Of a DNA stretch of 33,805 bases, positions 6,905 through 25,990 are shown piece by piece. The notes beneath the pieces are model-generated. The model worked only from the letters and a program-made list of their open reading frames with translations. It made no database searches and had not been told where the DNA came from. The position numbers and the translations under genes were made by a program. Source of the DNA: Pseudomonadota bacterium. GTDB taxonomy: Bacteria; Bdellovibrionota_B; Oligoflexia; Oligoflexales; RGVZ01. The stretch covers positions 1 through 33,805 of the forward strand of contig JAPLFV010000202.1 of assembly GCA_026390495.1 (NCBI GenBank), written 5' to 3'. The first letter of the stretch is position 1. Every line of letters starts with the position of its first letter.

Positions 6905-9900
6905 TTATTGAGATAAATTGGTCACGCGCAAAATTGTTCTATTTATGAGTCGAGTTGTCGTAGTCTTATAGCCGATAAACACCTCCGGCAAATCATCCCC
7001 GGTCACATCCCCTGCCAATACAGGTCCTACTCCATAGCTTTCCATACCCCAAGCTAAGCTGGAGCAAGTTCCAGCTGTCACTGCCGTCGCACAGGTGTAA
7101 TAGATCTGGCTAATTCGGTCTGTACTCTGACTATACATTCCTATCAATATGTCTCCATACCCATCTGCATTTAGATCCGCTAAGTCGACATCAGACAGAT
7201 ATCCGTTCAATTGCATATATGATCCAGCGGTGCTTGATAAATTAAAAGATCCTGTCGCAGTGCTTGTAACCGTTAAACTTACACCGTTTATGATTCGCAG
7301 AGTATTGATTGCATCAATTCCACCAACAACTAAATCCACACCTGAAACAGTGCTTGTGTTTAATCGTCCCCATTTCATAACAGTCCCGTTACTACCGCCA
7401 GAAGCATTAATTGTTGGACCGGTTTGAAAAATCCAAGTGCCACCTGCGTCACTATGCCTACGGCCAATCCACACCAGTTGAGTTGACATGCAAAGCACGG
7501 ATATCTCCGGTCGTCCATCTAAATCTAAATCGACAATACTCAAAGCTCTAGGATCCGTGCATCCGTTTAAAATTTGAGAAATAGACACCGCTGTCTCAAA
7601 GGTCCCATCGCCTTTACCACGCAGCCACGACAAAAATCCAGTTTGAGTTCCCGTCGTATTCCATCCTGCGACAGCCATATCGACTATTCCATCTTGGTCT
7701 AAATCACCGAGCGCCACTGCAACAGGTCGCAAATCTGCTCCTTCACCCACGTCATAAAGACTGGACGATCCCACGACGCCCGTACTTGTACCCAATGCAA
7801 CCGAGACACCTCGGCTGTAATATCCTGTCACCGCCATGTCCTCGATCCCATCATTATTGAGATCCATTAAATCCATGGAATTTTGGTGATGATAGGTATG
7901 TGGAAATCCATGATTTACTCCCATCGTATTAAAAACTGGATCGGGCAAACAACTTGTTGCAGAGCTCGGGCATCCATAAAACGTGGAATTTGACAAGTAA
8001 TTTGGTTTTAATGTCGTGCCTAATGAGTACGTTGGCGAACCAGATGTCGTACTCATATAGTTAGCGATAAAGCCTTGATTGACGATGTACGCTGACAAAT
8101 CACCTATGGTATCCGAATTGAAATCCGTCATTTTCATGGTTCCAACTTCTGCCGGTTGGATATAACTGGCTGGGAAGGTGTTCAACATTAAATCTGATTT
8201 AAGCGGATCGTCTGTTAAGCTTCCATTTCTTGCATAAGTCAATGCATAGGGAGCCGAGTTCGTATTTTCTGTTCCCATTACAAACACGTCTTGCCGCACA
8301 TTGTGATCAACAATCACCAATTGAATGGTACCCGTTAAACCCACGGCTCGACTTAAAGTTATATTTGGTGCGGAGATACTAGAGATGGTGGTGTTTTCAG
8401 GAACACCCACTCCATGAACACTTTGTCCAACAACCAATCCAGACGTAGAGGACAAAGACGAAATAGTAGCGTTACCGCTTACCGCCGTTCCAGACGGTGT
8501 AAACACAGGCATAGAAGGTGCCGTGACTGTAACAGATCCAGAGATATTTAAATTCTGATTTAAGGTGATCGAGCTTGCTCCAACAGAAACGATGTAAGAA
8601 TAGCTAGGAATACCCGTACCAGAAACTGGCTGGCCTACAACAAGCCCAGTCATTGACGACATGCCGGTTATAGTTGGATTTCCACTTGTTGCAGTGCCTG
8701 TAGGCGTCAATGTTGACGTCGATACTAAAGGAGCTACAATTGGCTCCATAGCTTGTCCAGGAGGCAACGCATAGTCGATTCTAGTCGTTGGTGTACTGGT
8801 TTCATAAAGGCCAGTGCAACCGGGAGTACTGCATTGACTTGGAATGATCGACAAGCACCCAAAGTTAGTTGACGCACCGACTTGATATTCTCGGTTACAG
8901 GTAACCATTAAAGATGGATAGGAGCATGATTTTGCGCCATTTGTACAATATGGAATGACTTTGTTTGCTCCGACAATATTGGCGCCCGACATTTGCAACT
9001 GAGGATTGATATTGGTTGCGCCCGAAAAAGTGCCGCCCCCAGGCATTAAATAAACTCTCACACTTGCTGAGTTTGCAGTTGCAGCAGATCCAACTGTTGT
9101 CACAATATCCGTGATTCCATCATTATTGAGATCTGTTGCCAAAACATCTGAAATCCAAGGTGAAACCGTGGAAGCAATGACTTCGTCAGTGGCTGATGTA
9201 TGGAGACTAAAATCACCTTGACACTGTGATCCAGTCCAGCTTTGGCGCATCACATGAAGGTAGCCGTTTGCGGTATTACTTTGTTGAAATCCTCCAACAA
9301 CAATACTCGGACAGTTTGCTGCTGAAGTCGAAAAAGTACTAGGAGGATTTACTGCAGCCGAGTTGAAGAATCCCATACCAAGCCCGTAAACATCCCGCAT
9401 AGTAGCAGTGTTGTTAATGATGAGCGGTCGATAGGCTGTTGATCCAAAAGCTATTACAGTTGTACCTGCAACTGTCGCCGTTGCATTAGCAGACAGGGTG
9501 ATGCTGGTATTTGCAACAAAACTTCTGACCGTTGTCCCTGCAGGCAAATTGGCATGGGTGATTGACTGACCAACGTAAACATTGGCGGTGGAAGGTACCG
9601 CTGTTATCACATTACTCGCGTTCGTCAAAGTACCGGTCACTGCATAGGCCGCTGGAGTTGTCAGGACGACTCCCGAGTTTGTTGCTGTTGCAGCAACGTT
9701 CATCGTGATACTTGTATTTGCTACAAAAGATGAAACAACCGCACCCGCGGGAATTCCAAGACCTGCAATCGGCATCCCAGCTTGAACGCCGGCCGTGGAC
9801 GCAACTCCACTTATTGTCGTCGAGGCACTTGTTAAATTACCGCTTGGAGACACATACCCAGTAAACAAAGTTGCTCGTTGGCCTGCTGATGTGCATGCTG

Positions 9901-12900
9901 CATTCAAAGCACAAGTATTTAGCAGCACATTGATCATTGCATCGCCAGTTGAAGTTGACGAAACGACTATGTCCAGCTTTCCAGCATTGGTGGCATCAGG
10001 TCTAAGATTGGAATATATCTCAAAAAAGTACGCTCCATTTCCGCCGTTACTTCCGGGAGGAATGATCCAGCAATTCATAGAGCTTTGAGAATAGCCACTG
10101 GGCATGCCGTATGTATTGACGGTTGAACTTCCCCACAGTGCACAAACTTGCTTGATGGTAGCATCAACAAAAACAATATCTTTGTAACCATCCTGATCCA
10201 AATCCGCGATTTTGATATCGGTCACGGTTCCAGTATTAATTGCTAGCGGTACATTTAATGAGGTTACGTTTTGACTTTGCGCAGGAATTCGTCCATTACT
10301 ATCAATCTTCGCGATTTGAATCGATCTTGGTACAGTATTGTTTATCGAATAAACTGCAAACTGTTGGGCATTACCCGTCAAAAATGAAATCGCAAAAGCT
10401 CTTGGATCACACCCATATGTTGTTACGATGCATGGGTTTGAATAGCGAGCCGACTTCAAATCTAGATTTTTGCCAGCAGCATTGACCTTTAAACTTAAAT
10501 TTTTGGTTCCTGCAAATCCATGTTGGTCTGTCACACTGACCGCAATCGTATAAGGCGACCCGGCATTGGCTGTCGGCGTTCCATAAATTCGACCCGAAGT
10601 CGCACTATAGGACAATCCCGCAGGAAGGCCTGATATAGACCAGGTAAGCCGCGAAGCGATGGCCGATCCATTAAACTGATTGACTCCACCAATTCTTTGA
10701 ATATCCACAGCGTAAGGTGTGTTCAATACTGCGACCGGAATTTTAGACGTCCGAATTTTTGGAGCAACTGTCACATATAAAGTCAAGTTACTCGTTGCGG
10801 AGGTTTGGCCTCCACTGTCAGCACTCCGGACACCGATGGTGTAGGTTCCGCCATTTGCAGCCGTAGACGAAGTGGGAGTCCCTGAAATTAATCCCGCCGC
10901 CGACATACTCAAACCAGATGGCAAACTCCCAGACACGATCGAATATGTGTAAGGGGACGCACCACCCGAAGATGTCAAGGAAAATCCGGTACCACCATTA
11001 TATGAAATACCAGTTCCAGCACGAGGCAAGCTTGTTGTTGCAACGGTCAACGGATCGCGTACTGCAAACGTAAATGACCTAGTATTGGATAGTGAAGGTG
11101 TGCTGCTATCTACAACACTTAAATAAACTGTATAGGTACCTGTTGCCGCATTGGTAAAACCAGACAATGCACCTGTGGTAGAATTTATTGACAATCCAGT
11201 CGGTAGCCCAGATGCAGAGTAGGTATAAGGTGTTGTACCTCCCGTAACTGTCACACTTCCGGAATAGTTCGCACCTACAACCACAGTACTAAAGGTATTA
11301 TTGGTTATAATCACTCCATTAACAGTGGTAATACATTTAGAAGATGCCAGACTCGTTTGTAAGAGCGCATCAGTCGCTTGAACAGTAAATGCTGCTGCTG
11401 GACAAGCCGTCGTCGCTGTTGCAGTACCTGTGACAACCCCAGCGGTTGACATTGACAACCCCGTCGGCAGTGAACCAGTTAAAGTATATGTATAGGGGCC
11501 TCGACCTCCTGAAGCGGAAAAAGTGTAAGAGTATGCTGAGCCCAATGTGGCATTAGTTGGCGAACCTGCGGAGACACTCGGAGTACTAATAGTTACCGTT
11601 ATAGACAGAGCGACCATAGCACTGATCTGACTTGTCGCGTCTCTGGCTCTTACGCTTATATTATAAGTTGTTCCTGCAGCTAGAGCTCCCGAACCTGTTG
11701 CTGGTGTGCCAAAAAACACGCCCGCACTTGTCAATCCCACGCCCGAAGGCAAGGTTCCAGTATATTCAAAAGTATAAGGAGCGGTACCGCCTGTTGCAGC
11801 AAGACTTGTCGAACTATTCGAGTATGCAGTGCCTTCTACTGCGTTAGATAAAGAAGCTGTCGTGAGTGTCACTGTGAATGAATTCGTTGAAAGAGCAAAT
11901 GCAGTCGAAGCGATGATTCCATTCGCATCAGTACTGGTTATAGTAAAATTCTTTGTGAGTCCAGCTTCAGCCTGTGCAACGATACCGCTGATGACTCCTG
12001 TGGAAGTATTCAATGTCAAACCAGATGGCAAGGTGCCGCTAGCTAATGCATAGGTATAAGGTGACTGTCCATTCACGGTCGAAATTGTTGCACTATAACT
12101 AGAACCAGGAGATGCTGCTGTTAGCGTTGTAGGAACTAGTGACGTGGTGTATGAGGTCACAAATCCCGAGTAGCTTCTATTTGCTGTAAGTCCCGCAATA
12201 TCAGTTACCGTGACTGTAAACAAGAAGGCAGCACCCTGACTTGCAAATGTGGACGTTCCGGAGATTAATCCACTGCTTGCATTAAGTGAAAGTCCTGCAG
12301 GTACTGTCCCAGATGTAATACTAAATGCATACGGAGCAGTACCTCCCGTGACACCAATGGATGCCAAGTAACTCGCTCCTGCTTGTGGCGCCGGAATCGT
12401 TGTGGTTACAATGGACAATGATGAGGTCGAACTTCCAGCAACAGTTCCCAAAAACGTTTTAGATGCTTTTATGCCTCCGGCATCGGTAACTGTTAACTCA
12501 AATGCATAAGGTTGATTTGAGGTTGCTGCCAGCGGAACTCCAGTAATTGCCCCAGTTGATTGACTTAAAATCATCCCTGATGGCAACGATCCCGATGACA
12601 CGGTAAACGAATAAGGCAACACTCCGCCTGTCGCGGCTAATGTGTAGGAATAATTTACTCCTGCAGTAATTTCCGATAGTGCTGTCGTATGCAATTTTAA
12701 GGTCGAACTTCCTGCGGAAATACTCCCCGTATAGGTCTGTGAAGCTGTTAGATCTGTGCTATCGGCAACATTAACGCTAAATGCAAAAGAAGTCCCTCCC
12801 GCCGCTGTCAATAGCGTTCCGGAGATAACTCCCGTCAATGGTTCCATCGTCAAACCAGTCGGCAACGTTCCACCGGTTACAGTAAACTTCAAAGGCGCGG

Positions 12901-13147
12901 TGCCTCCAGTTGTTACGATACCAAAGGAAACTGCACCAACCTGCATCGTCGGCAATTCTTTGGTTTGAATCACTAGAGTTTGCTTAGCTATTGTCAAGTC
13001 TGAAACTGTAGCTACTTTTCCACAAGCACTCAGTACCTGAAAAACAGAAAGGATCGCGATGAAGGCAGTTAAAATAGAACTAGGCCATCGCAAAGAACTC
13101 TCGCGATAAAAATGTTTACTCTGTTTCGTCAGTGTTTTCACGACCAC
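6905..13147 (-). CDS. Giant surface lipoprotein B: nine Ig-like repeats plus VCBS/FG-GAP propeller
   Basis: 2080 aa from a GTG start with AGGA about 4 bases upstream; a second in-frame GTG two codons on has AGGA about 10 bases upstream. The signal peptide ends in the lipobox VLSAC (Cys42). Domain order matches lipoprotein A: nine He_PIG Ig-like repeats (about residues 54-890), a linker with Cys residues (YSNPC, YGCDP), then calcium-loop motifs such as DLDQDGYKDIVF, DLNNDGIEDMAV and DLNADGYGDILIG. One loop is degenerate (DFNSDTIGDL), with Asp/Asn ligands lost. Four VGQ/GIP repeats are inserted, one more than in A, which accounts for most of the length difference. Both proteins end in RVTNLSQ. 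First gene of the probable operon; lipoprotein A follows after 143 bases. A surface stalk with a globular head is inferred, likely for adhesion; the ligand cannot be read from the sequence. Confidence 0.9.
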   Translation of the reverse strand: MVVKTLTKQSKHFYRESSLRWPSSILTAFIAILSVFQVLSACGKVATVSDLTIAKQTLVIQTKELPTMQVGAVSFGIVTTGGTAPLKFTVTGGTLPTGLTMEPLTGVISGTLLTAAGGTSFAFSVNVADSTDLTASQTYTGSISAGSSTLKLHTTALSEITAGVNYSYTLAATGGVLPYSFTVSSGSLPSGMILSQSTGAITGVPLAATSNQPYAFELTVTDAGGIKASKTFLGTVAGSSTSSLSIVTTTIPAPQAGASYLASIGVTGGTAPYAFSITSGTVPAGLSLNASSGLISGTSTFASQGAAFLFTVTVTDIAGLTANRSYSGFVTSYTTSLVPTTLTAASPGSSYSATISTVNGQSPYTYALASGTLPSGLTLNTSTGVISGIVAQAEAGLTKNFTITSTDANGIIASTAFALSTNSFTVTLTTASLSNAVEGTAYSNSSTSLAATGGTAPYTFEYTGTLPSGVGLTSAGVFFGTPATGSGALAAGTTYNISVRARDATSQISAMVALSITVTISTPSVSAGSPTNATLGSAYSYTFSASGGRGPYTYTLTGSLPTGLSMSTAGVVTGTATATTACPAAAFTVQATDALLQTSLASSKCITTVNGVIITNNTFSTVVVGANYSGSVTVTGGTTPYTYSASGLPTGLSINSTTGALSGFTNAATGTYTVYLSVVDSSTPSLSNTRSFTFAVRDPLTVATTSLPRAGTGISYNGGTGFSLTSSGGASPYTYSIVSGSLPSGLSMSAAGLISGTPTSSTAANGGTYTIGVRSADSGGQTSATSNLTLYVTVAPKIRTSKIPVAVLNTPYAVDIQRIGGVNQFNGSAIASRLTWSISGLPAGLSYSATSGRIYGTPTANAGSPYTIAVSVTDQHGFAGTKNLSLKVNAAGKNLDLKSARYSNPCIVTTYGCDPRAFAISFLTGNAQQFAVYSINNTVPRSIQIAKIDSNGRIPAQSQNVTSLNVPLAINTGTVTDIKIADLDQDGYKDIVFVDATIKQVCALWGSSTVNTYGMPSGYSQSSMNCWIIPPGSNGGNGAYFFEIYSNLRPDATNAGKLDIVVSSTSTGDAMINVLLNTCALNAACTSAGQRATLFTGYVSPSGNLTSASTTISGVASTAGVQAGMPIAGLGIPAGAVVSSFVANTSITMNVAATATNSGVVLTTPAAYAVTGTLTNASNVITAVPSTANVYVGQSITHANLPAGTTVRSFVANTSITLSANATATVAGTTVIAFGSTAYRPLIINNTATMRDVYGLGMGFFNSAAVNPPSTFSTSAANCPSIVVGGFQQSNTANGYLHVMRQSWTGSQCQGDFSLHTSATDEVIASTVSPWISDVLATDLNNDGITDIVTTVGSAATANSASVRVYLMPGGGTFSGATNINPQLQMSGANIVGANKVIPYCTNGAKSCSYPSLMVTCNREYQVGASTNFGCLSIIPSQCSTPGCTGLYETSTPTTRIDYALPPGQAMEPIVAPLVSTSTLTPTGTATSGNPTITGMSSMTGLVVGQPVSGTGIPSYSYIVSVGASSITLNQNLNISGSVTVTAPSMPVFTPSGTAVSGNATISSLSSTSGLVVGQSVHGVGVPENTTISSISAPNITLSRAVGLTGTIQLVIVDHNVRQDVFVMGTENTNSAPYALTYARNGSLTDDPLKSDLMLNTFPASYIQPAEVGTMKMTDFNSDTIGDLSAYIVNQGFIANYMSTTSGSPTYSLGTTLKPNYLSNSTFYGCPSSATSCLPDPVFNTMGVNHGFPHTYHHQNSMDLMDLNNDGIEDMAVTGYYSRGVSVALGTSTGVVGSSSLYDVGEGADLRPVAVALGDLDQDGIVDMAVAGWNTTGTQTGFLSWLRGKGDGTFETAVSISQILNGCTDPRALSIVDLDLDGRPEISVLCMSTQLVWIGRRHSDAGGTWIFQTGPTINASGGSNGTVMKWGRLNTSTVSGVDLVVGGIDAINTLRIINGVSLTVTSTATGSFNLSSTAGSYMQLNGYLSDVDLADLNADGYGDILIGMYSQSTDRISQIYYTCATAVTAGTCSSLAWGMESYGVGPVLAGDVTGDDLPEVFIGYKTTTTRLINRTILRVTNLSQ
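8325..9855 (-). repeat. Four 'VGQ/GIP' repeats in lipoprotein B (two tandem pairs)
   Basis: Pair one is at about 9445-9855 and pair two at about 8325-8712. The copies read 'G..TS...TI.G..S..G...G..I.G.GIP.G..V.S......IT.'. The second pair (starting LTPTGTATSG and FTPSGTAVSG) aligns with the single third copy of lipoprotein A, so one copy was gained in B or lost in A after the gene duplication. Confidence 0.6.
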
Positions 13148-16548: not shown

Positions 16549-16605
16549 TGGAAAGTCCTTTTTACTTTATAAATACACAGCAATCGCAGCCGATACCGGT
16601 CTTAA

Positions 16606-16751
16606 AGGGGCTGTTGAAATTGGCCAAGTTCAAGGCGCGAGCGATAAAAAAAGCAGGGGTCCCCAGCGAGACTCGCAGCTGGGGGTATTCCACATACACC
16701 ACCTTTTTTAGACCGAAGTAACGCAGAAATTGGCCAATTTCAACAGTCCCT
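16606..16751. repeat. Intergenic imperfect-palindrome element, copy A
   Basis: The outer arms 16606-16627 and 16730-16751 pair over 22 positions (17 perfect in CTGTTGAAATTGGCCAA, plus flanking bases with one G-U). After one mismatch, three more pairs follow. Inside are AAGGCGCGAG (16632-16641) and AACGCAG (16720-16726), both also found in copy B at 24660-24782. An A7/T7 pair and a CCCCAGC/GCTGGGG stem sit at the centre. The element lies between the 3' end of rnpB and the trmB start. It has no coding potential. The class resembles REP/MITE-like repeats, but I cannot name a family. Confidence 0.75.
16645..16709 (-). terminator. Possible terminator of rnpB inside repeat copy A
   Basis: Read on the minus strand, CCCCAGC and GCTGGGG form a stem that is followed, 8 bases later, by TTTTTTT. 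An A7 run upstream lets the helix extend and would make it bidirectional. It is about 45 bases beyond the rnpB 3' end, so it could stop rnpB transcription before trmB. The 8-base gap between stem and T run is longer than in standard intrinsic terminators. Confidence 0.4.
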
Positions 16752-16755
16752 AAAG

Positions 16756-17189
16756 CTAAGATGAGCGGATTGCGTAGGTGACTATAAGCCGGATTCTGTC
16801 CTCACACGCCGAAGCGCGCTAAAACCACCATTCATCTATGGATGTTTGTTGCCAAACACCTCAAGCAACCTACCCGGGATTCACGTCGGACCGACGCTAG
16901 ACAAACCTTTGACAGTCAATCTATCCACTGTTTGGTCTTGCTCCTGATGGGGTTTACCACGCATCCTGTTACCAGAAATACGAGTGAGCTCTTACCTCAC
17001 TGTTTCATCCTTACCACCCCGCCCTCGAGAGGTCGGAGTTCGGCGGTTTATTTTCTGTTGCACTGTCCGTCGGGTCGCCCCGCCCGGCCGTTAGCCGGCA
17101 TCATGTCCTTTGGAGTCCGGACTTTCCTCCAGTAATTATCACTAATTACCCGCGGTGATCCATCATCCTAAATAATCCGCACATCTTAG
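16756..17189 (-). ncRNA. rnpB: RNase P RNA, bacterial class A type
   Basis: This is the catalytic RNA of RNase P, which removes tRNA 5' leaders. The minus strand has the conserved GGAGGAAAGTCCGG (17117-17130) near the 5' end and ACAGAATCCGGCTTAT (16784-16799) near the 3' end, the two segments that form helix P4. A GATGAAACAGTGAGGTAAGA-type segment lies between them. The ends are set by helix P1: CTAAGATGTGCGGATT at the 5' end pairs with AATCCGCTCATCTTAG at the 3' end with one mismatch. The length of about 434 bases fits class A. The exact termini could shift by a few bases. Confidence 0.93.
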
Positions 17190-17196
17190 TTGGCGA

Positions 17197-17225
17197 ACAC
17201 TAAAGGGGGTCCATTAAAAAGTCAA
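17197..17225 (-). promoter_or_regulatory. Sigma-70-type promoter of rnpB
   Basis: On the minus strand TTGACT (-35, 17220-17225) and TAGTGT (-10, 17197-17202) are separated by exactly 17 bases. The -10 box is 7 bases before the inferred rnpB 5' end at 17189. The position relative to a stable RNA makes this one of the better-supported promoters in the window, though the -10 box is only a partial match. Confidence 0.65.
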
Positions 17226-17336
17226 TATTAAAAAGTAACTAATTTTCAAAGTTCCTGCAAAATTATTATAACATCATTAAAATTGATAGAGTCCAAAGTC
17301 ATGAATAGCTTAACAGTAAGGCCCTCATGGACCCAG

Positions 17337-17663
17337 TTATCTTACATTAAGTTTTAAGATCAAGTCGTAATCATCGGGATCGGGCCCGTCTCGTAAAGAC
17401 TTATTTCTGGTTTTCTGGCCGCACTTTTGGCACAGAAACAGAAGAACAATCCCCTTCTTTCCATCGAGCTCATAACCATTCGCCTTCAATTGACCTCGAC
17501 ACTCGTTTGCCCGATCTCCAGGATTTATGTCGACATGCTTGCTTGAAAGACAAAAGGGACAATGATTTCTGCACCCAGTTTTTGCTTTTTGAACGTGGCG
17601 CCCGCAATACTCACAAACAAAATTTTCGTTGATATGGGTAAACTGACCGGAGCTTGTCGACAT
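17337..17663 (-). CDS. RNHCP-domain zinc-ribbon protein
   Basis: 108 aa, cytosolic. The Cys pattern is CEYCGRHV, then GCRNHCPFCLSSKHVD, then FLCQKCGQKTRN. The RNHCP string is the name-giving motif of Pfam RNHCP, a short zinc-binding family of unknown biochemical role. The start ATG lies 3 bases after the DoxX stop and has no good ribosome site, so translation is probably coupled to doxX. Family call strong; function unknown. Confidence 0.88.
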   Translation of the reverse strand: MSTSSGQFTHINENFVCEYCGRHVQKAKTGCRNHCPFCLSSKHVDINPGDRANECRGQLKANGYELDGKKGIVLLFLCQKCGQKTRNKSLRDGPDPDDYDLILKLNVR

Positions 17664-17666
17664 TAT

Positions 17667-18053
17667 TTAACGTCCAAACAGGATAGGTTCAAATTGAGCT
17701 CTACGATCCCAAGCCAACAAAGTTCCGAGAGTCAAAATTAAGATCGGCATAATTAAATTGCCAATTCCTGGTGTCAAAAAAGCGTGAAACAAAAAAATCT
17801 GAATACAGACTGGAGCGATGACAACGAGTGCCAATGCGACCTTTTTATTGATCAAAAACAAAAATCCGCAGACTACTTCTGTTCCCTTTACCAAAGGCAT
17901 AAAATAGGGAGCCACCATAACACCATTCATAAACGCCTGAATATTCTCGGGCATGGGAGGTACTTCTATAAAATTCAAAAATCCATTCAGACCAAATACA
18001 AAAAAAATCAGTCCAAGCAAAACACGTACAATAGTCACAACGATTGCTGGCAT
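17667..18053 (-). CDS. DoxX-like integral membrane protein
   Basis: 128 aa, with AGGAGG 5 bases before the ATG. Four hydrophobic segments (about residues 5-25, 45-68, 72-92 and 97-117) and the N-terminal RVLLGLIFFVFGLNGF, followed by PYFMPLVKGTEVVCGFLFL, fit the DoxX/DoxD-like family. Members are small inner-membrane proteins, some linked to quinone or redox stress functions, but most lack a defined activity. It is the first gene of a two-gene unit with the RNHCP protein. Divergent from the lipoprotein gene starting near 18409. Confidence 0.85.
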   Translation of the reverse strand: MPAIVVTIVRVLLGLIFFVFGLNGFLNFIEVPPMPENIQAFMNGVMVAPYFMPLVKGTEVVCGFLFLINKKVALALVVIAPVCIQIFLFHAFLTPGIGNLIMPILILTLGTLLAWDRRAQFEPILFGR

Positions 18054-18408
18054 GAATGCCTCCTAAAACCGAAACGTTTAATCCTAAAAAAAATTGGGCG
18101 AAAGAAATCAGCCCCCTACACCTCCCTATAGTCTACACGAATCCCTTGAAGGCAAGAAACACGCTTTGAACAAATGAATTCTCATTTATGTTTTTCAAAA
18201 CAAGGGGTCTAACAACTTTAATTCTACTGCGTTTTAGGTGCGTTTTGCCATTCTAACCAAATCCTCAGGTGTACAAAATACTTTAGAAAAATCTAGCATC
18301 TTCCGATCCACACATTGAATTATAGGACCCTTCGAGCAAGAGATTACGAATGGTCGCATTATGTGGATATCCAGAATTTTAGGAATCAATTGTTTTGGGA
18401 GACTGATT
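18054..18408. other. Divergent intergenic region between doxX and the TSP3 lipoprotein gene
   Basis: About 355 bases without a supported gene. It must hold the promoters of both divergent genes, but I could not choose a convincing pair of boxes. AAATGA-ATTC-TCATTT (18173-18188 region) is a short 6-bp inverted repeat. An antisense frame at 18234-18428 has no ribosome site and covers the start of the next gene; I do not call it. Confidence 0.4.
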
Positions 18409-19779
18409 TTGAGATCTTTGCGCAACATTTCTTTACCGATCGCATTCAGCGCTTTAACAGCCCTGAATGCATGTAAAGGTACATCCTCGTCAGAAGAGTC
18501 AGAGACTCAATCTGCCGAATTTGGAGGCGCGCGCACTGACGTAACAGGAACCATCATCAGCCAAAATGGTTCACAAACTCAAATGCACGGATGGTTTGTA
18601 GCATTAATGGAGCAGCAGTCTGGAGCCGGCAGAATTGCAGAGGCAGATGGAAATGGTTCTCTTAAATTCTCACAAGCGAGTGTGGGGGCTGTTCAAACCG
18701 CTTTGTTATTATCTCCTGATTTTCTCGTTCAATCGGTTATGAGTATTCCTTCAACGAAGTCTAATACTGTTCGTCAGTACTTTCAGTTAACAAAAAACAC
18801 AATACCTCGCTTGATTCAAAAGGGCGGAGTCATAAATTTTCAAAACACAGATACCCTAAATATTCTGGATCAGTACTCAACTGATACAGATGGGGATGGA
18901 ATTCCAGATGGTGTGGCATCATTAGGCTTAGCTGCTATGACTGATAGTGATAGCGATGGGACCGCAAATGAATATGATTTTGACTTAGACGGCGACGGAC
19001 TCCCAAACACCTTTGACTCAGACGATGACGGTGATGGAATCTTAGATGCACTTGATTCAGATTCCAATGGAAATGGCGTCAATGATACTCAAGAGCGCTT
19101 TAGTGATATGCATTTTAAAGTAGGATTTGAATACATCAATGTTCAGCAAGTCAAAAACACAGCCGGTACTACGTTTAAATTTATTGCCAAAGTTCGCGAA
19201 GGAATCACACCTTCGAGTGTCAAAATTAGAGGCGCCACAACGCTACTAGCTAACAGCACTTACACTTCGGCGGATACATCTGGGGCAATCTGGGACTTCA
19301 GTCTTGCGGACGATGGTAAGAATGGCGATGCCAATACAAAGGATTCTCTCTATGCTAGGTCTGTTACATTTGCCTCAGGCGTCATGCCACGAACAGACCA
19401 GGCAATCTTCTTTCAGTTGGCAATCGGTGAAGGTCCAACTCAATTCGTTGCTGAGTTTCCTTTTGTTTTTCCTGAGCTCACGTTAGCCGTTCCAAGTACC
19501 TCGTATGCGCCAGCAACCAGGACTGTCACACTCGCTGGCGATCCATTTGGATCATCTCAACAAGAATTTTTGTGGCTCGTCACAGTCACAAATTCAGACG
19601 GACTCAGAGTCTATGAAAGTAACCCGATTGCGGGTTCTCAACGCGCAGCAATTATTCCATCAAATATTCTTCAAACTGGAAAATCATATACCTATAAGGT
19701 CACTGCACGGGCACAAGATAAGGTCACTGGCTACTCTTCACTCATCGTTGAAAGCGATGACGGTACAATCAGCAATTGA
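18409..19779 (+). CDS. Lipoprotein with thrombospondin type 3 calcium repeats
   Basis: 456 aa from the TTG at 18409. This start is preferred because GGGAG is 7 bases upstream and it yields a standard signal peptide (MRSLRNISLPIAFSALTALN|C, lipobox LNAC). The ATG at 18361 lacks a ribosome site and adds 16 residues. In long-form numbering, residues about 175-243 carry a run of TSP3-type loops (DTDGDGIPDG, DSDSDGTANE, DLDGDGLPNT, DDDGDGILDA, DSNGNGVNDT), known to bind Ca2+ and often to act as spacers in outer-membrane proteins. Upstream is a beta-rich region (about 55-165); downstream, about 230 residues of beta-type sequence without a family I recognise. Convergent with the gene at 19823. Surface structural or adhesive role inferred. 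Confidence 0.85.
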   Translation: MRSLRNISLPIAFSALTALNACKGTSSSEESETQSAEFGGARTDVTGTIISQNGSQTQMHGWFVALMEQQSGAGRIAEADGNGSLKFSQASVGAVQTALLLSPDFLVQSVMSIPSTKSNTVRQYFQLTKNTIPRLIQKGGVINFQNTDTLNILDQYSTDTDGDGIPDGVASLGLAAMTDSDSDGTANEYDFDLDGDGLPNTFDSDDDGDGILDALDSDSNGNGVNDTQERFSDMHFKVGFEYINVQQVKNTAGTTFKFIAKVREGITPSSVKIRGATTLLANSTYTSADTSGAIWDFSLADDGKNGDANTKDSLYARSVTFASGVMPRTDQAIFFQLAIGEGPTQFVAEFPFVFPELTLAVPSTSYAPATRTVTLAGDPFGSSQQEFLWLVTVTNSDGLRVYESNPIAGSQRAAIIPSNILQTGKSYTYKVTARAQDKVTGYSSLIVESDDGTISN

Positions 19780-19822
19780 TTTGAACTTGATCTAACATAT
19801 ATCCAAATCAAAAATCGACCTA

Positions 19823-21499
19823 CTACAAAGCAATGGTGATCCCGGTCCCTAGATAGATATTGGAATACTCGACTCCAGACGCATCCTCAGAGTCGGTTTC
19901 TTCAATGACCGTTTTTGTAATTGTCGTTGACTCAAAGGAACCAAAACCATAAACAGCAACGCGGACATCACTAACTTCAAAAAGTCCAAAATATTGATTC
20001 ATACCTGCCTTCAACGATCTTGTCCGATACATTTTATCGAGCGGAGTTACACCTGTAGAAATCCCAGCATAACTCCACAACCTCAGCAACACGGCACTCC
20101 AAGCTTTTTCAACGCCGAATTCGACTCCAGTGGTTGGAGAATTTTTTTGGACAAATGAGTTTGAAATGACTCCGCTTCGAGTGGAAAGTTCGCTACTTGC
20201 CTCCAAATTGGTAACCCCTATATTAGGCGTCATATCAATTCGAGACGCGAGCGCAGAATCTATATCCCATCCAATAGACCATCCCATTTGAAAACTAGAC
20301 CATCGCCCACTCAATTCTTCTTTATCGACAGAATATTCGCTCTTAGGTATCCAATCATAACTAAAACGCAAACCCCGAACTGGCCCGGATCTAGCTTCCA
20401 AGAAAACGCCAAAAATTTTAGATTTTGCAAACGGTGAAACACCACTCAGAACAGGCATACCGATTCTTATGCCAGAAATTAGCTTACTACCAAATAATTT
20501 AGGCTTACCCTTCCCAACCAAAGGGCTCTGCTTTTCTTTCACCACTTCTTTGGCAATGTAGTCTGCAAGCTTCTTGTCGATCGACTTTATAGATTTGTCA
20601 CGATCAGTATGGAGAACTACGGACAAATGAGTCACGGAATTTTTTGCAAGAAAGTCCGATATCTCTGTCGCTAATTTTGGCTTGACGCGACTAACAATCG
20701 ATAGCAAATCCTTAGCGTCGGAAGAACTTGATTGATTCCACTTGACCTGTCCAATAATATATTTTGCCCGAAACAATCCTCTGTCCCTGACTAATAGACA
20801 CAAGTAGTACTCAGTTTGATTTGCAGATTTGGGCTCGGTGACTGTTTGAGATTCAGAAGACTCCGAAGTCGATTCCTCCTTGGATGAATCGGTCTTTTTA
20901 GACGGAAAAATGGATTTCGAGAATGGAGCAAACTTTAAAAATCCTTGACTGGGGAGCGCAAGATTCAATCTTTGTCCCAACGCAATGCCAACATCGGTGT
21001 TTGAAAATAGTTTTGAAACGCTGAGAGTATCGGCGAATTCTACTTTGTAAATTTCAGTGTCCTTAGCTCCAGCGCGAAAAATCAGGCTAACCAAAAATGC
21101 TTTTCTTGCGTCTTCCAAAGGTTTAATCCGAATCAACCATGGATCATCCTTTTTGGATGGGTCTCGACTGCTACCGCTTTCGCCCTGACTCAAACTCAAA
21201 TGACACTTCGTCTCAGTAAATGGGTTCTCTGCAGGCGCACCAGGTAAAACAACAATCCTTTTGTGAAAGTTTGCGCAATTTGATTGAAGGGCTTTGACGT
21301 CTTTGGGTGAAAGTTTTTCAACCAATTCTTTGGAGATTTCAATTTGAAGGGGCATGGGTCCCTGGTTCACCGCAAAGGCAGAATCACAAAATGTGCCAAC
21401 AAATGTAAAGGTGGCTATTGGTATAAACAAAAATAGCTTCAACAATGCTTTGCAAAAGCCCTTGCATAAATTCAATAGCAGGGTGCGCAAAAGTGCCAT
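19823..21499 (-). CDS. Exported protein, possible outer-membrane beta-barrel C-terminus
   Basis: 558 aa. The N-terminal signal region is long and hydrophobic with a likely signal-peptidase I site after DSAFA. The N-terminal domain (about 45-200) contains two Cys (SNCANF, ETKCHLSL). A Ser/Glu/Lys-rich linker lies at about 203-232, then an alpha/beta-looking region (about 235-335), then about 210 residues of alternating amphipathic strands (GLRFSYDWIP, FQMGWSIGWDID, GVEFGVEKAW, VYGFGSFEST) ending YLGTGITIAL. That pattern suggests a small outer-membrane barrel, although the last residue is Leu, not the usual Phe or aromatic. No family recognised. The ribosome site at the ATG is weak. Divergent from the DUF1566 lipoprotein gene. 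Confidence 0.75.
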   Translation of the reverse strand: MALLRTLLLNLCKGFCKALLKLFLFIPIATFTFVGTFCDSAFAVNQGPMPLQIEISKELVEKLSPKDVKALQSNCANFHKRIVVLPGAPAENPFTETKCHLSLSQGESGSSRDPSKKDDPWLIRIKPLEDARKAFLVSLIFRAGAKDTEIYKVEFADTLSVSKLFSNTDVGIALGQRLNLALPSQGFLKFAPFSKSIFPSKKTDSSKEESTSESSESQTVTEPKSANQTEYYLCLLVRDRGLFRAKYIIGQVKWNQSSSSDAKDLLSIVSRVKPKLATEISDFLAKNSVTHLSVVLHTDRDKSIKSIDKKLADYIAKEVVKEKQSPLVGKGKPKLFGSKLISGIRIGMPVLSGVSPFAKSKIFGVFLEARSGPVRGLRFSYDWIPKSEYSVDKEELSGRWSSFQMGWSIGWDIDSALASRIDMTPNIGVTNLEASSELSTRSGVISNSFVQKNSPTTGVEFGVEKAWSAVLLRLWSYAGISTGVTPLDKMYRTRSLKAGMNQYFGLFEVSDVRVAVYGFGSFESTTITKTVIEETDSEDASGVEYSNIYLGTGITIAL

Positions 21500-21664
21500 T
21501 TAAAGCCCATTAGAAGGTCAATTTATTCAACAATACCTTAATTATTTTAGGCTATTACATGAATACATTCAACTTTGGGTCAATTAATGGAAAAAATTGC
21601 CGATCCTTCAACAAACAAGCGCTTTTTGGGATTTATTTTCACTGCTTGCTTTGAAAGGCGCGAT

Positions 21665-23902
21665 ATGAGCTCAATAAATTTGAATTTTGTTGTTTCTGTA
21701 ATGTCCCTAAGTCTATTTGTCGTAAGTTGCGGGAATGTAAAAAGTCAATTCAGACTATCGGGTGGCAAAACTGCAAGCGAGTCTAAGGCTGTGAGCCCTT
21801 CTCCTTTGGCCGCCAAGCCTGGAGACGAGATCGTGTTAACTGGAACTGAATTTAAAAAATCTAAAATATACGCGGTAGAAGTAACATTAGCTGATGGCTC
21901 AAAGGTCATGGTTCCGCTAACAATTGTCAGTGCAACCGAGGCAAAATTTACAATGCCTAAAGGAGCTGGATTAGGCTCTAAGGTGATTGACCTCTATTCA
22001 GGTGACACTAAGCTATCGTCGTTTGATTTGATCGCCGACCAAGTTGACAATAAACTGCCCATCGTCATCGCAGACGCGAGCACCATCTGTTCAGACATTA
22101 CCTATATCGACAAGAACGGAAAATCTTCCGTTGGAACGAAATCATGTACATCGTCTGGCAGCAGTGCAACAACTGTTGCAGATTGCACTGCCGGAGGTCA
22201 AATTGGTTGCAAAACGACAGCGGCATTTATCGCAGCTGAGTCAGCAAATCTAACTGCTGCTAATGTCAAATCAGGGGTGGTCATTGGTGGGATAACGGGT
22301 AGTTTCTCGGGAGCATTTTCAAATTGTTCCGCCGACGGCGTCATAGGATGCATAACGACAGCTTCCTATTTAAGTGCGGATGCTACACTTGCCTTAGCTG
22401 GAAATATCAGGTCTGGAGTCACACTTGCAGGAACAGCGGGTAGTGTTACTGCGGCACCAGCAAACTGTTCGTCAGCAGGCCAGCAATCTTGCGTCGCAAC
22501 AGGAACATACTTTGCAGGGGTTGCTTGTGCGGCCAACGGGTCTGCTTGTTACCTGCCAAGTTATGCTCTTACGACTCAGCCTCTTAAAGCAATTGACTAC
22601 GACAATATAGATGCCAACAAAGCTTCAATTAGGTCTTCTCTTGCACTATCAGGAATTTCAGGAACATTAGCAGATTGTACCACCAATGGCTCGCAAGGAT
22701 GCGTAACGACAGCCTCCTATAAATCTGCTGACCTTACAAATCTTTCCGCAGGTAACATTAAAACAGGTGTTACGATTGCCGGACAAGCGGGTGATTTCCC
22801 AAGTGCCACTTATACTTTGGCAGGCGCTGGAGTCACAGCCGATTTAGACAGTGCTACTTTCAATGCAAAGATAAAGTCCTCATCGTCTTTTGAGTACTGG
22901 GACTCTACAGGAGCGCGCCAAACAGGTGCAGGAGATGCAGATATTACAGTGTCAAACATAGCAAATACAGTTGATATCTTTGGCGCTACCGGAACATACA
23001 CAGGTACAGCCCCCAATGTTTGGGATTTACGTGCCGGTGTAACAGTGAGTGGCGTTACTGGAAAGTTGAGAGTCAATTGCCGCAGTGCAGCCAATCTAGC
23101 GACATACGATAATGCTGGGTATCCATTCTTAGTGTCGGTAGCAAACGGAACTGAAATCATTACCGCGGCTTCGCACGGATTAACCAATAATACCACCGTT
23201 CGTTTTTATGGAACAGCATTGCCTGGTAACGTAAGTGAGAATACAACTTACTATGTTATAAGTGCTAACGCGAATGACTTTCAAGTCTCAGCAACACTTG
23301 CCGGTGCTGCCCATAACCTTACCTCTAACGGAACTAATGTCTATGTCTATAAATGGGGAAATGGAACAACTGACATTTGGGATACGTTAGACGACAATGG
23401 TGGGTATGTTACAGCAACGCCTACATACACCGGATGGAGCTCGAACAATCTATGCGGCGGAATCGCGGCCTCAGACACTGATGACAATGTCTGGAAAGAC
23501 GTCGCAACAAATGGCGATGGATCTACGGCTTCCACTTGCACATTGCATCCCGCAAACTGCTCATTTAAAGATAAGATTACAGGACTTGAACTTGCCAAAG
23601 CAGATTCTACTGACAGAACCTGGACTGCATCAACACAACTTTGTGACAACTCTACACACAACGGTAAAACAGACTGGCGCCTTCCAACTCAAAAGGAGCT
23701 CATGGATATATACAATCACGGGTTCAAAGCAACGGCAGGACAAACAGGCTGGATGATTTCAGGTGACCTTAACGTCGACTTTTGGTCTTCGACAACACAA
23801 AGTAACGACTTACTCAGTGCGTTCTCGGTCCACATGGGATTGGGATATACGGCTACAAGTTGGAAGCCTGCAAGTAAAAGGGCGCTTTGCGTTAGACCAT
23901 AA
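21665..23902 (+). CDS. DUF1566 lipoprotein with IPT/TIG-like domain and Cys-rich 43-aa repeats
   Basis: 745 aa from the ATG at 21665 (AAAGG 7 bases upstream); the earlier ATG at 21575 lacks a ribosome site. Lipobox LFVVSC (Cys22). An IPT/TIG-like domain follows (PLAAKPGDEIVLTGTEF). Four repeats of about 43 aa come next with the consensus '(D/N)C(T/S)..G..GC.TTA.Y..AD...L.AGNIK.GV.I.G..G'; the third is expanded. A 'SHGL.....V.F......P......TYYV...-N-FQ.S' module comes next (VSENTTYYVISANANDFQVS). The C-terminus is a DUF1566/Lcl-type domain (KTDWRLPTQKELMDI, FWSSTTQ, ending RALCVRP). DUF1566 resembles C-type-lectin-like or Fib_succ folds. Surface-exposed binding protein inferred; ligand unknown. 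A strong hairpin terminator follows. Confidence 0.88.
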   Translation: MSSINLNFVVSVMSLSLFVVSCGNVKSQFRLSGGKTASESKAVSPSPLAAKPGDEIVLTGTEFKKSKIYAVEVTLADGSKVMVPLTIVSATEAKFTMPKGAGLGSKVIDLYSGDTKLSSFDLIADQVDNKLPIVIADASTICSDITYIDKNGKSSVGTKSCTSSGSSATTVADCTAGGQIGCKTTAAFIAAESANLTAANVKSGVVIGGITGSFSGAFSNCSADGVIGCITTASYLSADATLALAGNIRSGVTLAGTAGSVTAAPANCSSAGQQSCVATGTYFAGVACAANGSACYLPSYALTTQPLKAIDYDNIDANKASIRSSLALSGISGTLADCTTNGSQGCVTTASYKSADLTNLSAGNIKTGVTIAGQAGDFPSATYTLAGAGVTADLDSATFNAKIKSSSSFEYWDSTGARQTGAGDADITVSNIANTVDIFGATGTYTGTAPNVWDLRAGVTVSGVTGKLRVNCRSAANLATYDNAGYPFLVSVANGTEIITAASHGLTNNTTVRFYGTALPGNVSENTTYYVISANANDFQVSATLAGAAHNLTSNGTNVYVYKWGNGTTDIWDTLDDNGGYVTATPTYTGWSSNNLCGGIAASDTDDNVWKDVATNGDGSTASTCTLHPANCSFKDKITGLELAKADSTDRTWTASTQLCDNSTHNGKTDWRLPTQKELMDIYNHGFKATAGQTGWMISGDLNVDFWSSTTQSNDLLSAFSVHMGLGYTATSWKPASKRALCVRP

Positions 23903-23975
23903 TCAGCAGCAAAGGTAGACATTTGAGTCGGCATTAGTGCAAATGATACAATCTCTGAAATTCTGAGTAATCATC

Positions 23976-24009
23976 AATGCGAAAAACACAAGCATTTGTT
24001 TTTCGCATT
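23976..24009 (+). terminator. Hairpin terminator after the DUF1566 lipoprotein gene
   Basis: AATGCGAAAAACA pairs perfectly over 13 bp with TGTTTTTCGCATT; the loop is 8 bases. On the plus strand the stem ends in a T-rich edge (ATTTTCG). It lies 74 bases after the stop at 23902 and 131 bases before the next gene. The T run is short, so efficiency is uncertain. Confidence 0.65.
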
Positions 24010-24139
24010 TTCGTAGGTTAGTCTTCTCAGAAGCATCTCATTACATTTTTTGTTTCAAATCCTCATGGTTTCGTGGGGATTACGACAATTTGGCGTACTA
24101 AATACCAATGCAATCCAACTCACCTTTAAAGGAGCATCG

Positions 24140-24658
24140 ATGAAACTGACAGCCATTGCCTTTTCTCTCGTATCTTTTGTGAATTCAACATCAATTTTGG
24201 CAAGTGAACTAAATCTAATTCCTTTGAATGAGATCTCCCAAGCTAAATTCAAGGAACACTTGATAGCCAATGATCCACTTCCTTCTGATTCTCTGCAATC
24301 TGGTCGCTACGAAACAAGGGAAGGATACTTTTCTAACTTTGTGGTCTCAAAATGGGCTGATGAATATGTCGTAAAAACCTTGGTCCGATATGCAGAGTAC
24401 TACCTCGACGCTGAGTACTCTATCGAGCATGTCAGTGGAAATGAATTTCGCGGGCGAGGACAAATAGAGGCCACCTACGCTAACAATAAAAGTTGCTTTT
24501 ACACCACCACAATCGAAATCAAGGCATACGAAAATCGCCTATTTATCAAAACCTACATGCAGCAAGGTATTGCCGATCAAATCGTAAACGGCTATTGCCC
24601 CGTTCTGCCTTACGGTAGCTTCGTTCATCGATCACCATATGACCGCGTAGGTAACTAG
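24140..24658 (+). CDS. Small secreted protein of unknown function
   Basis: 172 aa from the ATG at 24140, which has an excellent ribosome site (AAAGGAG 5 bases upstream). The upstream in-frame start at 24050 has none. Signal peptide MKLTAIAFSLVSFVNSTSILA with a likely cleavage after ILA. The mature part is beta-rich and aromatic (YETREGYFSNFVVSKWADEY, RYAEYYLDAEYSIEHV), with two Cys (SCFYTT, YCPVLP) that could form one disulphide. Probably periplasmic or secreted. I do not recognise a family. The stop is immediately followed by repeat copy B. Confidence 0.8.
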   Translation: MKLTAIAFSLVSFVNSTSILASELNLIPLNEISQAKFKEHLIANDPLPSDSLQSGRYETREGYFSNFVVSKWADEYVVKTLVRYAEYYLDAEYSIEHVSGNEFRGRGQIEATYANNKSCFYTTTIEIKAYENRLFIKTYMQQGIADQIVNGYCPVLPYGSFVHRSPYDRVGN

Positions 24659-24659
24659 T

Positions 24660-24782
24660 GCCTGTTCGGGGTTCTCTGAATCAAGGCGCGAGGAGCTGGA
24701 AAAGCGGAGTTTACTTCGGGTAAATGAGCATTTTCCAGCAACGAGCAACGAGCAACGCAGAGTCAGGGGACTCCGAACAGGC
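24660..24782. repeat. Intergenic imperfect-palindrome element, copy B
   Basis: The outer arms are 24660-24682 and 24760-24782: 19 of 23 positions are Watson-Crick complementary, three others are G-U, and one is a mismatch. Inside are AAGGCGCGAG (24683-24692) and AACGCAG (24754-24760), the same boxes as in copy A. An inner 9-bp stem GCTGGAAAA/TTTTCCAGC encloses TTTAC-TTCGG-GTAAA. Three consecutive GCAACG(A/C) units precede the right box. The element fills nearly the whole 129-base gap between two convergent genes, so it may act as a two-way transcription end. Confidence 0.75.
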
Positions 24783-24787
24783 TCTAA

Positions 24788-25990
24788 CTAAAAAGCAATC
24801 TCAGCGGTGTCTTCTTCTCCGATCCTAACAATCTGGCGAAGTCGATGGTGTTCTAAAAACTCCTCAATCGACTTCGCCTTTAGTAATTCTCTGAGATACC
24901 TTGGAGAATCATCACTGGACGCGAATAACGAGTGAACACTCGATGCTCCTGCAAAATGAGGATCCGTGGGTTTGAGTTGACCTAAGCCCGATAGCTTTAA
25001 AACCTTTGAAAACTCAATTTCCGGATATCGATCTTGCAATGGCCGAAGAACAGTCAATGAGAACGACTCGGCTACCGTTTCGTCTAACACTCGGTCTTTG
25101 GAATATATTATTTGCTCATTTGACTTGGTAAAATTTGATCGATTTATATCAAGTGCTATATGACCTACTTCATGCACCATCGTATCAACAGCATCGGCTG
25201 GACCTATTGACGGTGAAAGCCAAATCTTTGTCCCGTTGAAGAACACATCTGGTACGTGACCAACATGCTGCCTAGTATATTGATCCAAACTTTCCAGACC
25301 CGTTTGTCCAACCTTCTCAAAATCAAAATCATCGAACAGTTTGATAATTGTTTGAAGCGGCGGAAAATTTGACACGAACTCAAAGTCCTTTTGTGACATC
25401 GAACCGTAAGTGGCATCAAACGGGACATCAGGCCAAGTGCCAATATCCATTGTTTCGAAAGTCATGTTGGGCACAGTTTCGCGAACCAACTCAGACAATG
25501 ATAGATTTGCTCCGTACTTACGAATCCATTTTGATTTCCAAAGAAACTGGTGCATTTCTGTGGACCAACCAGCTTGGGACGATGAATCGCCACTAATATC
25601 ACTTGCAATACAAATCCGCCCGTGATCAGTTAACCACTCTAACAATTCAATCTCTTTTTCTGAAACCAGATCGTCGCGTACTTTGTTTAAGAACTGACAA
25701 TGCAAGCCTCTGTTTCGATAGTCGGTCGACTGAGTATTCACTCGACTCAATAGGTCTTCAAAAGAATCAAACTTGTTAGGAAAATCCAGGCTTGGAATTT
25801 TTGTCCTTAGAAGGCTACGCCTTTCGGAAAGGTAAAATTCATGCTGACTCTCAGATTCCAAATCTGCCCTTGCAAGTCGTCCTCGCTCAATTCTAAGTTT
25901 AAAAGACTCCCGGGCTTGAGCATTAACTAAGCCAAAAACCATGAACGACACTGTCCCAAATGATAACAATAAAAATAATTTTGATTTCAT
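24788..25990 (-). CDS. Secreted HExxH protein, putative zinc metallopeptidase
   Basis: 400 aa from the ATG at 25990 (GGAGG 5 bases upstream); the codon at 26005 would add five residues. Signal peptide MKSKLFLLLSFGTVSFMVFG with cleavage near VNAQA. DAVDTMVHEVGHIALDIN contains HEVGH (HExxH); about 26-31 residues later VLDETVAESF supplies Glu residues that could be the third zinc ligand, as in gluzincins. The preceding segment VFFNGTKIWLSPS looks like the edge strand found before zincin helices. The rest (about 270 residues N-terminal) matches nothing I know. It follows an AraC-type regulator gene on the same strand by 51 bases and is probably co-transcribed with it. The HExxH motif is short, so peptidase activity is likely rather than certain. 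Confidence 0.75.
   Translation of the reverse strand: MKSKLFLLLSFGTVSFMVFGLVNAQARESFKLRIERGRLARADLESESQHEFYLSERRSLLRTKIPSLDFPNKFDSFEDLLSRVNTQSTDYRNRGLHCQFLNKVRDDLVSEKEIELLEWLTDHGRICIASDISGDSSSQAGWSTEMHQFLWKSKWIRKYGANLSLSELVRETVPNMTFETMDIGTWPDVPFDATYGSMSQKDFEFVSNFPPLQTIIKLFDDFDFEKVGQTGLESLDQYTRQHVGHVPDVFFNGTKIWLSPSIGPADAVDTMVHEVGHIALDINRSNFTKSNEQIIYSKDRVLDETVAESFSLTVLRPLQDRYPEIEFSKVLKLSGLGQLKPTDPHFAGASSVHSLFASSDDSPRYLRELLKAKSIEEFLEHHRLRQIVRIGEEDTAEIAF

Follow-up and report, generated by a model that had tools for sequence, protein, structure and literature searches.

A covarying folded core, shared with ERIC, occurs under several families of unrelated ends in short intergenic elements of an Oligoflexales genome

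The window, i.e., the whole analyzed stretch of 33,805 nucleotides (contig JAPLFV010000202.1, assembly GCA_026390495.1), contains two intergenic elements, copies A and B. They belong to a multi-copy class whose new part is the core: one covarying fold under many unrelated ends. In our assessment, the elements are probably non-autonomous MITEs, in which the arms would be terminal inverted repeats for different DDE transposases and the core a shared, strand-specific folded module, also present in ERIC. Computation shows the core with its covariation, the families of arms with their specific duplication lengths, the modular combination of arms and core, and the match to ERIC; movement by IS transposases, exchange of cores between arm families and a function for the core are inferred.

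Copies A and B were found where a sequence-only reading of the window had placed them (Table 1), and the left box AAGGCGCGAG and the right box AACGCAG are common to both and sit at the same position of the fold. Each copy forms one long imperfect hairpin as had been described, with z-values of -5.7 (A) and -7.7 (B), and no shuffled sequence equaled either. With up to two mismatches, the left box alone is no less frequent in the window than expected by chance; the two-box pattern has 7 occurrences in the genome versus 0 for the reversed control. Rfam searches at gathering and relaxed thresholds gave nothing credible for the window copies, and a terminator scan at copy A gave nothing convincing. 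Copy A is located about 20 nt past the 3' end of the RNase P RNA gene; its possible TAAA duplication is imperfect, and duplications of the A family are mostly 5 bp long. The two genes next to copy B both end in a TAG codon (24656-24658 and 24788-24790) that adjoins or falls within the duplicated target site and element end, and the insertion of copy B may have set both gene ends.

Table 1. Positions of the two elements, their parts and one neighboring gene in the window.
Feature	Position	Strand	Evidence or remark
Possible target duplication of copy A, left (TAAA)	16603..16606	.	sequence; TAAA repeated after right arm
Copy A left arm (A family, GGGGCTGTTGAAATTGGCCAA)	16607..16627	+	
Copy A core, long-hairpin variant	16628..16730	+	R1 43.2 bits; R2 E 1.5e-5
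Copy A boxes within core	left 16632-16641, right 16720-16726	+	
Insert in copy A core hairpin (GGGGTCCCCAGCGAGACTCGCAGCTGGGG)	16656..16684, end approximate	+	same junction in A-, C-, D-arm copies
Copy A right arm (TGGCCAATTTCAACAGTCCC)	16731..16750	+	
Possible target duplication of copy A, right (TAAA)	16751..16754	.	sequence
Target duplication of copy B, left (AACT)	24653..24656	.	sequence; duplication-length test
Copy B left arm (B family, AGTGCCTGTTCGGGGTTCTCTG)	24657..24678	+	
Copy B core, short duplication (CAACGAG) on right	24679..24764	+	R1 76.9 bits; R2 79.4 bits, E 1e-17
Copy B boxes within core	left 24683-24692, right 24754-24760	+	
Copy B right arm (AGGGGACTCCGAACAGGCTCT)	24765..24785	+	
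Target duplication of copy B, right (AACT)	24786..24789	.	sequence; duplication-length test
RNase P RNA gene (neighbor, outside element)	16770..17171	-	Rfam RF00010, 279 bits

The genome (4.45 Mb) was searched with the core covariance model R1, a check which the sequence-only reading had proposed, and 54 copies were obtained at E < 0.01; the copies beyond A and B have self-complementary arms as well. By their arms, the copies were grouped into at least four families, A (GGGNCTGTTGAATTTTGCCAA), B (AGAGCTTGTTCGGAGTTAGCTG), C (AGATTCTGCTGAAAAAGGGTTA) and D (GAGCCAGTTTAAAAACTCCGA) and a few singletons. Arm identity is 78-92% inside families versus 47-57% across families (shuffled baseline 50%). 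The core has 71-86% identity across families, and A cores are as similar to C cores (86%) as to each other (84%). Thus, the observation that the arms of copies A and B are unlike and nevertheless self-pairing holds, whereas the idea that they are kept by pairing alone does not, since the two families are each conserved in sequence over many copies. Changes in the B arms are compensatory (344 double differences versus 94 in shuffles, 0/2000), the shuffle treating copies as independent without correction for kinship among them. Concerning G.T versus A.C in the arms, families A and D lean to G.T and B does not; because B lacks the lean and the copies are not independent, this asymmetry was dropped as a test for RNA.

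The central hairpins of copies A and B differ, as had been noted, and the hairpin of copy A turned out to be a variant carrying an insert. The insert string (GGGGTCCCCAGCGAGACT...) occurs at 10 genomic places, 9 of which are inside such elements and the tenth (L150) in an apparent degenerate copy; since every occurrence thus belongs to such an element or to what seems to be a remnant of one, it was ruled out as a separate repeat. In A-, C- and D-arm copies of the genome it sits at the same junction, for which exchange between the families is the simplest reading; cores would accordingly have been exchanged between arm families. Three further arrangements were observed. At L148:1960-2016, a short B-arm palindrome without core (TAGAGCCTGTTCGGAGTTTCCTGAA...GCGCCGAACAGGCTCTA) is apparently a core-deletion form. 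At L149:2238-4400 (G000:C234), a B-arm copy (about 2831-2950) is traversed by an uninterrupted reading frame of 721 aa, and a second B half-arm is found in the upstream gene near 2067. At L094:1501-1801 of an Oligoflexia genome, three near-identical copies stand in tandem with a period of 110 bp; hence, the elements can form arrays too.

The core module comprises 79 nt. In a set of 45 copies, taken from the order of the window and one gammaproteobacterial bin, 94.8% of the cells pair and 147 show changes on both sides versus 34 in shuffles; the covariation is lost once the partners are slid by 1-3 columns. A second set of 43 copies, mostly from the other class, reproduces it. All rows were found and aligned by models of this structure, so that the pair counts lean toward it, which is a small worry given the effect size and the slid controls. 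The fold covaries strongly and strand-specifically, in agreement with the earlier proposal that a folded single strand is maintained, which the compensatory changes in the B arms support further. Characteristic features are a G.U pair, a GNA/GA loop, a bulged A and an AAC bulge; CAAG, G.A opposite GA, the bulged A and AAC are conserved although they form no standard pairs. The one pair is G.U in 39/45 and 41/42 copies, and would be A.C on the opposite strand; therefore, the printed strand is the conserved one. The core hairpin forms under DNA parameters also. The conserved wobble and the non-canonical loop favor RNA over single-stranded DNA (ssDNA), the former being perhaps twice as probable.

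Model R2 was built from the 45 copies, no ERIC included. It recovers ERIC in 6/6 enterobacterial loci, each time in full length, on one strand and as top match of the locus, with E-values of 3.7e-6 (Rahnella), 2.1e-4, 5.6e-4, 1.1e-3, 1.5e-3 and 0.011 (7.6 kb searched), which are rough due to the short calibration of R2. Scores of E. coli ERIC are modest (E 1e-3 to 1e-2, 7.6 kb), and R1 aligned ERIC weakly. ERIC (IRU, RU-1; Enterobacterales, Vibrio) has the left AAGGCG and right AACGC boxes of the window elements, a central GAG-YTTAC..GTAAR-TGA stem with G.U pair and tandem G.A, and a similar size and intergenic MITE habit. It differs in its arms (TATACYCTAAATAATTCGAG...), which are unrelated to those of the window genome, and lacks the bulged A of the core but keeps the G.U and G.A pairs. 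According to the literature, ERIC inserts at TA, whereas the elements of the window genome have 4- or 5-bp duplications. With these arms and duplications, the window elements are relatives of ERIC by core, but not ERIC. The suspicion that the class had been seen but not characterized was a close guess, as ERIC falls in it. The reviews PMC2229807 and PMC10969869 name neither a partner transposase for ERIC nor ERIC relatives outside enterics and Vibrio. An assignment of the E. coli elements L155-L157 to Delihas' RU-2 and RU-3 was rejected, as the printed sequences do not support it.

Matches (E ≤ 1e-4) were obtained in 20/58 genomes of the window's phylum; genus g25, which serves as a check for false matches, had matches in 0/8 genomes. 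In the class sample of the bin titled Gammaproteobacteria, 100/274 genomes had matches. Named hosts include Halomonas, Pseudomonas veronii, P. tremae, Candidatus Fukatsuia, Escherichia and Klebsiella, and, by BLAST only, P. aeruginosa; no match was found in phages. Presence is patchy between close relatives. Most genomes examined have their own arms, and the same core is found under dozens of unrelated arms.

The flanking direct repeats differ in length by arm family, namely 5 bp for A and 4 bp for B and C. For 5 bp in the A family, 52/70 positions agree versus 31.4 in shuffled data (0/5000), and the agreement at 4 bp was reached in 11/5000 shuffles for the B and 14/5000 for the C family; other duplication lengths fail in the same test for the three families. 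Several target duplications are imperfect. A core element of about 110 nt interrupts a cobalamin riboswitch at L119:437-749, where RF00174 scores 87.9 bits across the insert. One CTAG target is occupied by a core element in some Pseudomonas plasmids and by an IS5-family element with different ends in others; no clean empty site was found for the Pseudomonas plasmid copy, the left flank of which is itself mobile (IS630 family). The elements are about 120-145 bp long and hence below 300 bp, have no coding capacity, are multi-copy, and have paired ends forming terminal inverted repeats and a target site duplication; their classification as MITEs is well supported. The earlier argument that transposon ends would look different does not apply, since the arms of each family share a conserved sequence and are flanked by target duplications whose length is specific to that family. 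Given both properties, the arms look like ends for different transposases, and two duplication lengths under one core point to at least two of these. Movement would be mediated by IS transposases. An autonomous IS with A-D ends was not found in the genome (arm BLAST and DDE_Tnp_1 search; assembly of 431 contigs), and no partner with matching ends was found in three named plasmid records with one arm pattern. Multi-copy IS tend to drop out of fragmented assemblies.

Several known systems were compared. The Correia element (NEMIS) of Neisseria is a MITE with AAGGCG and AACGC boxes and a short central GTAC stem; it differs by the missing GAG/TGA loop and by its ends (TATAGTGGATTAA), which are unlike the arms of the window genome. 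With R2, only its boxes align (E 0.018; Cupriavidus relative, E 0.15). In Cupriavidus metallidurans CH34 (L078:1480-1575), a Correia-type centre (GCAGACAGTACAAGTAGTACGG) is found in quite different arms (GAGGCGCTATCAAAATG); Correia elements may have swapped ends too. While no Rfam family matches the window copies, relatives resemble two families below their cut-offs. The best relatives score 39.0-39.2 bits with sX9 (RF02228, gathering cut-off 44 bits), a Xanthomonas sRNA. In the elements of E. coli and Klebsiella and in one more gammaproteobacterial element, its alignment covers the left half, on the minus strand. V_AS5 (RF02818), a Vibrio antisense RNA, aligns along E. coli ERIC with 46.4 bits (gathering cut-off 96 bits). 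Both are described in Rfam as genes for sRNAs and not as mobile elements. MITEPsy1, from Pseudomonas syringae, is a MITE of 100 nt with duplications of 4 bp (CTAG/YTAA), and its transposition has been proven (PMC3189936). Its target type is that of several gammaproteobacterial copies, but its end repeats, as published, differ from theirs. REP/REPIN sequences are likewise short intergenic palindromes with tens of copies, and Y1 genes exist in the window genome; the window elements differ in being longer, having target duplications and lying away from the Y1 genes checked. Searches for the core strings in the openly accessible literature gave nothing relevant; closed journals may hold an earlier notice.

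According to the preferred explanation, different DDE transposases would act in trans on the outer arms as terminal inverted repeats, and the arm family would set a target duplication of 4 or 5 bp. The core would act single-stranded, more likely as RNA than as ssDNA, and would bind a host factor via its G.U pair, GNA/GA loop, bulged A and AAC bulge; the bound core would favor spread or persistence of whichever ends carry it. These steps concerning the core are the least certain. Extending this, we tentatively propose, at somewhat less than even confidence, that the core is a portable RNA or ssDNA module which binds a widespread host factor and repeatedly gained new transposon ends, ERIC being one outfit of an ancient hitchhiker in Gammaproteobacteria and Bdellovibrionota. 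Orientation to the flanking genes is random in the window genome (left neighbor 19 vs 18, right neighbor 16 vs 18), which argues against selection via host transcripts and favors a role connected with the element as such. The same numbers speak against a terminator family, one of the options named initially, and against a host-level RNA signal, i.e., a transcribed hairpin under host selection which stabilizes, cleaves or terminates neighboring transcripts. Such a signal would fit the position of copy A just downstream of the RNase P RNA gene, and effects on mRNA stability via RNase E and RNase III are reported for both ERIC and Correia elements (PMC2229807, PMC10969869). Since presence is patchy between close relatives, and known host effects of ERIC can be side effects of insertion, we regard a host-level signal as distinctly unlikely.

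A core without any function, being the interior of one ancestral MITE whose arms were swapped passively by recombination, would equally be expected to show random orientation, and the insert common to three arm types points to recombination between families. Pairing would then be kept by template switching from one hairpin strand to the other during replication (quasi-palindrome correction), from which the covariation of the B arms is equally expected. Such correction leaves the conserved unpaired bases and the G.U pair unexplained, as it does the survival across phyla under dozens of arms, and a functionless core is considered unlikely, albeit less so than a host-level signal. Least probable of all appears a core serving as ssDNA hairpin for an HUH (Y1) enzyme, i.e., a REPIN-like or IS200/IS605-like element with acquired DDE-type ends. 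The hairpin does form with DNA parameters, G.T and sheared G.A pairs occur in DNA, and Y1 transposase genes were found in 4/4 genomes searched. At the eight Y1/RAYT loci checked, neither core nor arm was nearby, which also disfavors the REP/REPIN assignment considered at the outset, and target duplications with long inverted ends mark DDE, not HUH, transposition.

ERIC has been a typing tool for decades, and the shared core gives it a family and a testable structure. The modularity suggests that mobile elements can change their ends yet keep their payload. Some annotated sRNAs (sX9, V_AS5) may be fragments of such elements. With a covariance model of the core, it would become possible to annotate a class of intergenic DNA that is for the most part unnamed and that a large proportion of Gammaproteobacteria carries.

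Two further observations were made besides. The PLSDB entries NZ_CP119140.1, NZ_CP134663.1 and CP125156.1 are "plasmids" of 2.2 to 5.4 Mb which look like whole chromosomes. On the minus strand of the window, positions 720-6761 and 6905-13147 encode adjacent giant paralogues (2013 and 2080 aa), probably surface proteins, each of which has nine He_PIG Ig-like domains in addition to FG-GAP repeats.
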